Positions 1 through 33,504 of a stretch of 33,504 nucleotides of DNA are shown here, one piece after another. Made by a program: the position numbers and the translations under genes. Origin of the DNA: Acidobacteriota bacterium (GTDB lineage: Bacteria > Acidobacteriota > Terriglobia > 20CM-2-55-15); the NCBI GenBank assembly GCA_022821145.1, contig JAJEEE010000006.1:1-33504 (forward strand), in the 5' to 3' direction. Position 1 is the stretch's first letter; each line of letters begins with the position of its first letter. The notes under the pieces are model-generated. The model did no database searches. It was given only the letters and a program-made list of their open reading frames with translations, and was not told where the DNA came from.

Positions 1-25
1 AAAAAATGCTGGAAAATCTCTGCAT
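1..25 (-). CDS. Probable transposase, first 8 codons only (runs off the window)
   Basis: An ATG at 25-23 on the minus strand opens a frame reading MQRFSSIF before the sequence ends. A strong Shine-Dalgarno sequence, GAGGAGG, lies 8 bases upstream. The N-terminus resembles the F-S-x-I/V-F-S-Q-L start of IS4-type transposases with a DUF4372 domain, but eight residues are far too few to prove it. It is identical to the start at the other end of the window. Confidence 0.4.
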
Positions 26-93
26 GGTTGAGCCCTCCTCTTCGGTTCGGTCTTTCTTGTCGAAAAACCAATCCTACGAGGTCGGGCTCAACC
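26..93 (-). promoter_or_regulatory. Long stem-loop covering the ribosome binding site of the presumed transposase (left copy)
   Basis: On the minus strand GGTTGAGCCC (93-84) pairs with GGGCTCAACC (35-26), which ends directly before the ATG. Inside, CCTC (81-78) pairs with GAGG (40-37), and GGTTTTTC (69-62) pairs with GAAAGACC (56-49) around a 5-base loop. The Shine-Dalgarno sequence GAGGAGG (40-34) therefore lies within the stem. A transcript entering from the interrupted host gene would fold it shut. The right-hand copy is identical. Confidence 0.6.
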
Positions 94-95
94 TC

Positions 96-539
96 TCAAT
101 CCTCTCTCCATTCCGCAGAATCTAATTTGGACAGGTATGGGAACAAATGCAGCGTCGCCGGCGAGTGTGCTCCGGGGGTCAGCGCAATCCGCTCTGCCGG
201 GGCCTCAACGAGTCGCCTTGTTGTACTAGCAGCAGCAAGCGCATTTAGAAGGCTTTCGTCCACAGCCGTCGAAACCACCGACGACCAAGGAAGAGAGGCG
301 AGCTCAATAAGCGGGATCTGTCGAGTCGCCAAGTACTCGGACATTGACGCCGTCAAGGTCGCTGCATCGACGACCGACAAAGCCTCTCTCAGCGACGCCA
401 AGGGCGTCGAAGCTAGCGAGGACGCCTCTCTGGTAACGCTTCGAACGAGCCCTTCCGTGTGGTCCTGGCCCAACAATAGGCAGGCACGCCCCTCCGATAT
501 CGCGGCAACCAAATCTTGAACCGTTGAGTTGTTCGTCAT
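96..539 (-). pseudogene. SIR2-like protein, 5' fragment cut by the insertion sequence
   Basis: The frame starts at ATG 539 with GGAG 7 bases upstream. About 132 residues are host-coded; the last 15 or so, up to the stop at 96, come from the insertion-sequence end. Residues 17-26 (GRACLLLGQD) sit where SIR2-like proteins carry the first glycine-rich NAD-binding loop. Residues 84-101, around PWSSVVSTAVDESLLNAL, resemble the W-x-x-V-x-T-T-x-x-D-x-L-L segment of the SIR2-like domains in many anti-phage proteins. The glycine motif is degenerate, so NAD hydrolysis cannot be assumed. The domain is incomplete and the remainder presumably lies beyond the inserted element. Codon use is less GC-biased than in the chromosomal genes to the right. 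The family call is tentative. Confidence 0.4.
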
Positions 540-31209: not shown

Positions 31210-31560
31210 ATGCGCGTCCTCGCCTTCGTCATGGGGCTGGTCTTCGTCTTCGGCGCGGCAGTCCAGTACAACGACCCGGATCCACTGCGATGGGGGCTGG
31301 TCTACCTCGCGGCCGCCGCGGTTTCGTTCGTGGCGCTGGCGCGCCCGTTGCCCTGGCAACTGCCCGCCGCCATGGCCCTCGCGGCGTTCGTCTGGGCGCT
31401 GACGCCGCTGGCCGGCGTCGACGCCGCCGCGTGGCGGGAACTGTTCGGCGAGTTCGGGATGGCGTCGCTGGAGATCGAGGAGGCGCGCGAAGCGCTGGGC
31501 CTCGCGATTATCGGGGCGTGGATGATGGTGCTCGCGGCGGCCGGTTGGCGGCGCCGCTGA
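31210..31560 (+). CDS. TMEM220-like small membrane protein
   Basis: This 116-residue protein has four predicted membrane helices: 1-18, about 27-45, about 50-67 and about 92-112. The family mark Q-Y-N-D-P-D-P-L-R-W directly follows the first helix, as in TMEM220 proteins. The function of the family is unknown. ATG 31210 gives the natural hydrophobic start. A GTG at 31189 overlaps the previous stop as GTGA and would add seven residues; translational coupling makes it a real alternative. It is last in the cupin-UPF0261-TIM barrel unit. Confidence 0.7.
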   Translation: MRVLAFVMGLVFVFGAAVQYNDPDPLRWGLVYLAAAAVSFVALARPLPWQLPAAMALAAFVWALTPLAGVDAAAWRELFGEFGMASLEIEEAREALGLAIIGAWMMVLAAAGWRRR

Positions 31561-31683: not shown

Positions 31684-31712
31684 TTGGCGCTGCCGCAGAC
31701 AATAAGTATACT
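31684..31712 (+). promoter_or_regulatory. Promoter of the right-hand accessory genes
   Basis: TTGGCG (31684-31689), an exact 17-base spacer and TATACT (31707-31712) make a good sigma-70-type promoter. The start site falls near 31719, next to the GTG at 31721. A second, weaker -10 (TATAAC, 31765-31770) lies closer to the ATG at 31815. The region 31561-31683 before it shows no gene. Confidence 0.5.
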
Positions 31713-31720
31713 GCCGCCCC

Positions 31721-33103
31721 GTGCCCGGCGATTCCGCGATTCGACGAACGACCGACGCTTCGGTTATAACGCGCGTGCACAACACCCGTTTGTCTGAGGA
31801 GCCAAGGCACACGCATGACGCAGACGAAGTCGACCGATCCTGGACCGACGACGATCACCGACCTCCATCCCATCAAGAACCTCCGGCCGCCGACCCGTGG
31901 GAACTGTCTACGAAACGTTCTCCCGTCGACAACCATAGGCACGTGACCGTTCGCACGGTTCACGCCGAACCCATTGGTGAACCGCGCCAACTGCCGTTGG
32001 CATACCCCGAAGGCTCCACCCCATCGCACGGAACCACAGACGCGCTCGAATCTCTTGATCCGAAAACCGCCATCGAGATGGCGAACGCCCCGGGAGCCCT
32101 CTCCACACAGCAGGACACTGACGACGAAGATGCTGAAGTCGCGTTCGACTTGGATCTTCATGACGTACGCTTCCCCGAATTCGATTCGGACCTCGCTTGG
32201 GACGCCGTCGACGCGGTCGATCACTTCTTGCAAGACGATGCCGCCGATTCCGGAAATGGCGACTACACCGAAGGGCAGTCTATACTGCGATCACCGGGAG
32301 GATTCGGTTTTCCGTCGGATGTCGCTGATGCCAGTGTCCAGGGATCCGATCCGCCCGATTCGCCAGTAACATCGACTCCCATCGACGATTTTTTCCAGCA
32401 CGAGGACGCAACATACGACGATCGCAACTATCTCAACGTCGAAGGCACGTCACATTTTGACGTGGAACTCGAATACGAGGCGGAACTCGCCAGCGCAGAT
32501 CTCCCCGACTTCGATCCAAGCCTACATCGTCCACCCCCACTTCCGTCTGACAGCGACGATACTCTTCGCCGTGCAAGGGAAAAGGCCGCCGCCGTCGTGA
32601 GTGTTTTCGCAACGCTTTCCAGTTGCGACCGTGAAGCCGCTCTCAACTACATGACCGACTTCTTTAACGAATTCCAGCACCACGCCACCTACGAAGCGAT
32701 AAAGCGACTCGCCTGGGAGGGACTGGATGTCGAAACGCTCCAGATGATGATCGAACTTCGAGAGATCTGGCACGATCGTGCTGCATGGTCCGAGCCGTTG
32801 CACTCCAGAGAATGGTCTTCAATACGCTATCCGACATCCCTGCCGTGGAAGTTCGCATACCAGATTTGCCGATTTCGCTGGCAATATCCGCCAGATCAGA
32901 TGATCGACGATGACTGGTTCAGTGAATGGAGACGCACCACTGCCACCGATCGCGACGCCACACTCCATTTCGCGACGTTCGTCCTAAACAAAGTCGCCAG
33001 TCTGCGCCCTTCTCTCTCGTCATCCGATTTCTACGACGACGATAAGCCTGCGTGGAAGTCGGCTGTCAATCCACTCCGGCTCAGACGATTTCGTGTCGAT
33101 TGA
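31721..33103 (+). CDS. Acidic protein of unknown family next to defence-like genes
   Basis: The longest frame has 460 residues and is not recognised. Residues 1 to about 285 are acidic and low in hydrophobics, rich in D, E, S, P and T, probably disordered or repeat-like (D-T-D-D-E-D-A-E, D-L-D-L-H-D, D-S-D-L-A-W-D). From about 285 to the end lies a helical, folded-looking domain with R-R-A-R-E-K-A-A-A-V-V-S-V-F, M-T-D-F-F-N-E-F and many tryptophans (R-F-R-W-Q-Y-P-P). No catalytic motif is evident. The start is uncertain: GTG 31721 would make a leaderless message, while GTG 31943 overlaps a small upstream ORF as GTGA and would give 386 residues. The C-terminal part is surely coding. It is followed 35 bp later by a helicase-like gene, suggesting a common system. 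Confidence 0.6.
   Translation: MPGDSAIRRTTDASVITRVHNTRLSEEPRHTHDADEVDRSWTDDDHRPPSHQEPPAADPWELSTKRSPVDNHRHVTVRTVHAEPIGEPRQLPLAYPEGSTPSHGTTDALESLDPKTAIEMANAPGALSTQQDTDDEDAEVAFDLDLHDVRFPEFDSDLAWDAVDAVDHFLQDDAADSGNGDYTEGQSILRSPGGFGFPSDVADASVQGSDPPDSPVTSTPIDDFFQHEDATYDDRNYLNVEGTSHFDVELEYEAELASADLPDFDPSLHRPPPLPSDSDDTLRRAREKAAAVVSVFATLSSCDREAALNYMTDFFNEFQHHATYEAIKRLAWEGLDVETLQMMIELREIWHDRAAWSEPLHSREWSSIRYPTSLPWKFAYQICRFRWQYPPDQMIDDDWFSEWRRTTATDRDATLHFATFVLNKVASLRPSLSSSDFYDDDKPAWKSAVNPLRLRRFRVD
31815..31946 (+). CDS. Possible small ORF coupled to the acidic protein
   Basis: A 43-codon frame runs from ATG 31815, with AAGG 7 bases upstream and GAGGAG further up, to TGA 31944-31946. That stop overlaps GTG 31943 in the frame of the acidic protein. 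Third positions are strongly G/C, more so than in the competing long frame here. The peptide contains T-I-T-D-L-H-P-I-K-N-L-R-P-P. Either it is a leader or small partner protein and the downstream gene begins at 31943, or it is chance within a longer gene. No family recognised. Confidence 0.35.
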   Translation: MTQTKSTDPGPTTITDLHPIKNLRPPTRGNCLRNVLPSTTIGT

Positions 33104-33138
33104 CGTCGTCCGCCCGCTGAACTTCGGGGCGTCCTCCT

Positions 33139-33417
33139 ATGAATGACGAACGACTCATCCCAGTAGAGGGTTGCTGGGTCAGACGGCCCGACGGCAACCG
33201 CGACCTGGGGCAAGTCCAGGGACATCGTGTGTCGAACGGCCGAATCGACCTCGGCGTTGCGTGGGGCCGTTCTAGTCGTCAGTGGGTTCCAATCGACGAC
33301 CTTCGCTCCGGCTTTCAATTGGGCTGGTTCGTCCAGGACGTCCCGCACTCAACGATACGGAGACCCATACCTGTCCAAATTAGATTCTGCGGAATGGAGA
33401 GAGGATTGAGAGGTTGA
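33139..33417 (+). pseudogene. Probable SNF2-type helicase, first 75 residues, cut by the insertion sequence
   Basis: From ATG 33139 the host sequence codes 75 residues to base 33363. The frame then runs 17 codons into the insertion-sequence end and stops at 33417. The fragment has a small beta-barrel-like N-terminus: E-G-C-W-V-R-R-P-D-G-N, G-Q-V-Q-G-H-R-V, I-D-L-G-V-A-W, then W-V-P-I-D-D-L-R-S-G-F and V-Q-D-V-P-H-S. This resembles from memory the region before the ATPase core in SNF2-family helicases of defence islands (DISARM-like and related). No helicase motif is present in the fragment, so the call is tentative. No good Shine-Dalgarno sequence is seen, and it lies 35 bp after the acidic protein gene, so coupling is possible. 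Confidence 0.4.
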
Positions 33418-33479
33418 GCCCGACCTCGTAGGATTGGTTTTTCGACAAGAAAGACCGAACCGAAGAGGAGGGCTCAACC
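33412..33479 (+). promoter_or_regulatory. Long stem-loop covering the ribosome binding site of the presumed transposase (right copy)
   Basis: GGTTGAGCCC (33412-33421) pairs with GGGCTCAACC (33470-33479), CCTC (33424-33427) with GAGG (33465-33468), and GGTTTTTC (33436-33443) with GAAAGACC (33449-33456) around GACAA. The Shine-Dalgarno sequence GAGGAGG (33465-33471) is buried and the ATG at 33480 abuts the stem. Confidence 0.6.
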
Positions 33480-33504
33480 ATGCAGAGATTTTCCAGCATT
33501 TTTT
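33480..33504 (+). CDS. Probable transposase, first 8 codons only (runs off the window)
   Basis: ATG 33480 opens the same MQRFSSIF frame as at the left end, 8 bases after GAGGAGG. It continues beyond the window. IS4/DUF4372-type identity is a guess from these few residues. Confidence 0.4.

Follow-up and report, generated by a model that had tools for sequence, protein, structure and literature searches.

The window analysed here, a stretch of 33,504 nucleotides from an Acidobacteriota bacterium (assembly GCA_022821145.1, contig JAJEEE010000006.1), is the whole of contig C89 in a genome of 4.18 Mb assembled in 89 contigs. Close to its 3′ end, on the plus strand, we found a gene for an acidic protein, designated X (31721..33103), followed by the 5′ fragment of a gene for a RapA-like Swi2/Snf2 helicase (33139..33365), which is interrupted by an insertion sequence (IS). 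Comparison with other bacteria identified X as a new obligate partner of the RapA-like helicase, a finding that holds even if the pair has no role in defence.

Gene X and the interrupted helicase gene

The open reading frame (ORF) of gene X comprises 460 codons (31721-33103) and encodes a protein of 437-460 residues, depending on whether translation starts at GTG 31721, GTG 31775 or TTG 31790. Residues 1-282 carry a net charge of −47. A short conserved motif, WTDDDHRPPSHQEPPAADPW (W-x3-D...DPW), is located near the N-terminus (31841..31900, plus strand; residues 41-60 of the 460-residue frame). In the family of X proteins the pattern W-x2-3-[DE]...DPW was present at the N-terminus of 16 of the 83 members; the expectation from shuffled sequences was 0.12 (maximum 2). 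The motif is followed by an acidic, probably disordered linker that ends in a D/E-rich stretch (31901..32542, plus strand) and by a conserved all-helical C-terminal domain (residues ∼275-429; 32543..33007, plus strand) delineated by the family profile and a structure model.

The C-terminal domain is the part shared by the whole family. A profile built without the window sequence matches the window X with E 7.6e-39 (in a search of one sequence); W403 is invariant, while W350 and F417 are nearly invariant (460-residue numbering). AlphaFold predicts the domain as all-helical with a predicted local distance difference test (pLDDT) score >90 over most of the core; the set of structure models left out three rows from plasmid records. 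Complete X had zero matches in Pfam, NCBIfam and PADLOC, and fold searches of PDB and BFVD returned nothing similar to its C-terminal domain. The first-pass annotation of this DNA, made from the sequence alone, had described a tryptophan-rich C-terminal domain unlike anything known, and this description was borne out in all five collections. One match of the X-domain profile, to beta-N-acetylgalactosaminidases (E 3e-4, 23.8 bits), is unsupported by the fold search and was treated as chance.

The N-terminal regions vary from member to member: TPR repeats were detected in several proteins, ankyrin repeats in one and a zinc ribbon in one, the others being acidic and probably disordered. They have a net negative charge in 68 of 74 members. 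The X proteins of Deinococcus (L026 8530-12477; L025 8575-12477) are ∼1300 residues long and contain proline-rich and probably coiled-coil regions; unlike most of the family they are not acidic.

A 43-codon ORF (31815..31946, plus strand) had been proposed as the first of three genes, and X was allowed to start as late as GTG 31943, which would give a protein of 386 residues. The conserved motif in the X frame sits inside the 43-codon ORF, 5′ of GTG 31943, and the pattern of GC content by codon position in the X frame is unchanged from ∼31815 onward; therefore, both the late start and the small ORF were rejected. Since a start at GTG 31943 would cut off the motif, translation of X must begin upstream of 31841; of the 386- to 460-residue acidic protein suggested earlier, the 460-residue frame stands, with any of the three starts named above, and the 386-residue version does not. 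An ATG ORF of 43 codons arises in 18% of shuffles of the same stretch (37% if any start codon is allowed), and this one overlaps the family-conserved motif of X in another frame. The small ORF is not conserved, and the N-terminal half of X is kept in the family only as the short motif. We judged the ORF not to be a gene, and the three-gene order is wrong because the ORF is spurious. An AAGG located ∼7 bases 5′ of ATG 31815 resembles a ribosome-binding site, but for the wrong frame.

The helicase fragment consists of the first 75 codons, mostly the first of two N-terminal beta-barrels, and is 49% and 36% identical to two Swi2/Snf2 helicases. It ends with an 11-bp target-site duplication, ATACGGAGACC (33355..33365, plus strand), which is found again where contig C53 ends. 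The final 139 bases of the window (33366..33504, plus strand) are the left end (CATACCTGTCCAAATTAG...) of an IS4-like element, with a transposase start near 33480; the family assignment is based on the element ends, the length of the duplication and the initial residues of the transposase. The genome has ∼15 copies of this left end, each located at the end of a contig. When the same genome was searched with a homologous helicase, the missing 3′ part of the gene was found on C53 (30585-33210, minus strand). ATACGGAGACC precedes the IS in the window and follows the right end of the IS on C53, as a target duplication predicts. Given the IS left end after 75 codons and ATACGGAGACC on both contigs, the helicase gene has been cut in two by the IS. 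The helicase-like gene noted earlier behind X is thus correct as to its start at 33139, but it is broken at 33366 and its remainder lies on C53. Because the insertion splits the motor gene, the X-helicase module is probably inactive in this genome. The right end of the IS on C53 provides an in-frame ATG for the remainder of the helicase; this end (L027) is itself duplicated in tandem (57 bp), immediately ahead of the target duplication.

Conserved pairing, helicase type and gene neighbourhood

When 84,980 genomes were scanned with the helicase, 193 relatives were obtained, of which 80 were examined; together with three plasmids they make up 83 loci. The relatives come from Acidobacteriota, Proteobacteria, Chloroflexota, Gemmatimonadota, Latescibacteria and other groups. 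In all 82 loci with room for it (79 genomic and 3 plasmid) a gene with the X domain is located directly upstream of the helicase gene on the same strand; the two-gene order thus recurred in every homologous locus examined. The spacings between the two genes peak at overlaps of 4 and 8 bases. The reverse search, with the X domain alone among 391 genomes of one order, detected it in eight genomes (two of them already among the relatives from the helicase scan), with the helicase directly behind in eight of eight. Exactly one copy of X per genome was observed in 20 of 20 genomes. No X domain was found near 29 other RapA-like helicases of viral contigs, which are more distant (≤43% identity), or in random regions; E. 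coli genomes and phage records gave no match.

The two genes share an evolutionary history. In a mirror-tree comparison the distances of X and of the helicase were correlated with r 0.886 (shuffled maximum 0.08), a value that linkage alone would also yield. The mean identity is 20% for the X domain versus 45% for the helicase; this divergence and the exchange of N-terminal forms in X make a sensor-like pattern. We are highly confident that X and the helicase work together.

Homologues of X were first seen in a Thermoanaerobaculia genome (G322) by a search of the phylum. The helicase fragment led to X on plasmids from Nitrosococcus halophilus and from two species of Deinococcus, always directly before the same type of helicase; tblastn of the window X against plasmids gave no match, and homologues of X came to light only by way of the phylum search and the helicase fragment. 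A match to X in genome G210 (E 0.0085) was assigned to chance, as it has a housekeeping neighbourhood and is not repeated by the profile search. The search with the helicase fragment also matched Streptomyces and Methylocystis; the Streptomyces match was discarded, as the region shows no helicase. The distribution of the pair is patchy, which together with its low GC content speaks for mobility: the pair is present in 2 of 396 genomes of the window's own phylum and in 8 of 391 genomes of another order (∼1-2%), and it is missing from 60 relatives of the window's genome, among them a congeneric genome and nine from the same family.

The helicase is built of two beta-barrels at the N-terminal end, a Swi2/Snf2 core and alpha+beta regions toward the C-terminus (AlphaFold model m73e461cd39f9). 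Its top solved match both by sequence (E 3.5e-33) and by fold (Foldseek E 1.4e-33) is RapA (HepA), the RNA polymerase-associated Swi2/Snf2 ATPase, which has the same domain order (tandem N-terminal beta-barrels, core, C-terminal alpha+beta). It differs from RapA in scoring far below the NCBIfam cutoff (158 and 173 bits for two helicases, cutoff 576), in always standing behind X and in its scattered distribution. The Swi2/Snf2 cores of DrmD of DISARM and DpdE of Dpd are related as well, but the same helicases score far below these curated cutoffs too: 312 and 330 bits for DrmD (cutoff 610; a true DrmD next door scores 1011 bits), 188 and 201 bits for DpdE (cutoff 500). Among the best PADLOC matches of the helicase are BrxHI (315 bits) and BrxHII (299 bits). 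According to PMC12839542, BrxHII of BREX type 3 and BREX-related helicases share with it a length of ∼940 residues and an architecture of Tudor, Swi2/Snf2, degenerate nuclease and alpha+beta regions; however, there is one N-terminal barrel there and two here, and most pairs have no adjoining BREX core genes. The helicase is not encoded with the BREX type 3 core (PglZ, PglX/BrxXI, BrxC, BrxF), as no third gene recurs in the loci and BrxL stands beside one pair only. A residue set of the PD-(D/E)XK type is absent among the positions conserved at ≥80% in the C-terminal part of the helicase.

The closest parallel in logic is Druantia III, which combines a large, fast-evolving sensor (DruH) with a conserved helicase (DruE) in two genes (PMC13192584, PMC13316683); DruH is more divergent than DruE (PMC13192584). 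The likeness does not extend to the proteins, neither of which proved related in any of the comparisons made: the helicase here is of Swi2/Snf2-RapA type and DruE is of YprA type, while X matches no PADLOC model. BREX-related systems (PMC12839542) and YprA/ARMADA systems (PMC12458937) use related helicases, and X is not among the partners named in the consulted parts of these two sources. As names for the pair we considered DruH, DUF499/Hma, BREX-related systems and ARMADA; none of them fits. No published description of the X-helicase pair was found in a search that left out subscription papers and many preprints, so an earlier name is possible.

Genes neighbouring the pair, 137 in all, were compared with PADLOC (E 1e-15): 72 genes matched 135 families and 65 genes matched 81 families, whereas 72 control genes drawn at random from these genomes matched eight, several of them housekeeping look-alikes; the enrichment in defence genes is real, its size not exact. 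The matches include DISARM, BrxL, restriction-modification of types I, II, III and IIG, ThsB, AriA and Tmn. Among the homologues of X none was found in a housekeeping context, an outcome that would have spoken against the pair as a system of its own. There is no recurring third gene; the commonest cluster of neighbours, which contains DrmD-type helicases, occurs near 9 of 83 loci.

Several individual loci have conspicuous neighbours. In the Thermoanaerobaculia genome G322 a DISARM-type drmD and a DrmMI-like methylase gene lie beside the pair on the opposite strand (L021 1722-9332). The pair on the plasmid of N. halophilus (L023 1-3448) is ∼2.8 kb from an annotated dsr1 defence gene. In Deinococcus actinosclerus the pair adjoins a gene whose 1229-residue product combines an eCIS core domain with a Novel-toxin-15 end (L025 16353-20042).

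A candidate defence module and rival explanations

The gene context makes it probable that the pair is a defence system. With slightly less assurance, we propose that X and the helicase form an undescribed two-gene module directed against phages or plasmids, in which X would be the sensor or adaptor for the Swi2/Snf2 motor. An unknown protein and a helicase had already been singled out as a candidate undescribed system in the first-pass annotation; the recurring two-gene order and the defence-gene neighbours support that choice well. The role of X as a sensor or adaptor that docks through its C-terminal domain is, in our estimate, an even call. In such a mechanism, the helical C-terminal domain of X would dock on the RapA-like motor, most likely at the N-terminal tandem beta-barrels. 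The fast-evolving acidic modular N-terminus (TPR, ankyrin, zinc-ribbon or disordered with the DPW motif) may sense or recruit a partner linked to the invader, and the engaged motor might then translocate on invader DNA and displace polymerase or replication complexes. That the motor blocks transcription or replication of the invader without cutting is a tentative suggestion.

Several observations weigh against a defence module. The neighbours of the pair in its own genome are housekeeping genes and a PIN-type toxin-antitoxin region, with no large defence island. The counts of PADLOC families are inflated, since models of related helicases overlap and a single DrmD matches some twenty of them. 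A nuclease or other effector was found in neither protein, so the killing or blocking step is unexplained. The AlphaFold models are of monomers, and the docking site is a guess.

Among the alternatives, the main rival is a toxin-like motor held by X. As a toxin-antitoxin or abortive infection system, the free motor would be harmful and X its inhibitor; infection would remove X and growth would stop. The obligatory pairing and the overlapping two-gene order with the fast-evolving partner first are in line with this, and abortive infection is the mode of action of a related Swi2/Snf2 helicase-nuclease (work to which PMC12839542 refers). X, however, is far larger and more modular than typical antitoxins, and we regard this explanation as unlikely. 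Rather less probable still is a host module for transcription or DNA repair, with the helicase recycling RNA polymerase as RapA does and X as an accessory factor. By sequence and by fold no solved structure is closer than RapA, but the helicase has no match to the Pfam RapA accessory domain, and the presence in so few genomes, the scatter over many phyla, the low GC content and the defence neighbours are unlike housekeeping.

The pair could instead belong to DISARM or BREX as an accessory module so far unrecognised and not be free-standing, as might be suggested by drmD and drmMI adjoining it in a single Thermoanaerobaculia genome and by genes of DISARM or BREX type next to some other pairs; lacking a recurring third gene, and with even the commonest cluster confined to so small a share of the loci, we consider such an arrangement quite improbable. 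The first-pass annotation had raised the idea that the acidic N-terminal half mimics DNA, which would make X an anti-restriction protein and the helicase an incidental neighbour. Acidity is indeed a trait of the family, and it is as compatible with a linker or a role in interactions as with a DNA mimic. Yet no fold is common to the N-termini, some of which contain TPR, ankyrin or zinc-ribbon regions; conservation lies in the C-terminal domain and not in the acidic half; and the pairing with the helicase is invariant. The idea is weak, and we give it hardly any weight.

Returning to the sensor-motor module, a bolder and doubtful extension is that X represents a novel family of modular sensors for invaders. 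In these, a new helical docking domain with interchangeable recognition regions (TPR, ankyrin, zinc-ribbon or disordered with the DPW motif) would switch on a RapA-type motor, and the motor would halt transcription or replication of the phage while leaving its DNA uncut. If the proposed module is real, it would be a widespread two-gene immune system as yet unnamed, bringing a new protein domain and a clear example of a swapped sensor with a kept motor, where the target of each sensor could be mapped; it would also mean that defence can be carried out by a RapA-type motor lacking a nuclease.

Edges of the window

Gene X and the helicase fragment lie in A/T-richer DNA, as the first-pass annotation had noted, with a GC content of 56.5% at 32-33 kb versus ∼66% across the remaining window. 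On C53, past the helicase, there is the PIN-type toxin-antitoxin region, followed by genes that are housekeeping by eye (IspE, peptidyl-tRNA hydrolase). The island seems to carry just the X-helicase pair and the toxin-antitoxin genes. Ahead of X, a sigma-70-like promoter match, TTGGCG-17-TATACT (31684..31712, plus strand), agrees with the consensus at 9 of 12 positions and is a consensus match only; two promoter-like sites were observed in the region versus 0.5 in shuffles. The promoter noted previously is confirmed as a promoter-like site, with two genes behind it rather than three. A TMEM220-family gene (Pfam PF15071, E 9e-19) is located directly upstream of the island edge (31213-31560).

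The other end of the window (1-539, minus strand) carries another copy of the IS end described above. The gene that it cuts after ∼130 codons (MTNNSTVQDLVAAISEGRACLLLGQ...) had no match in Pfam, NCBIfam or PADLOC; by eye, it looks SIR2-like.
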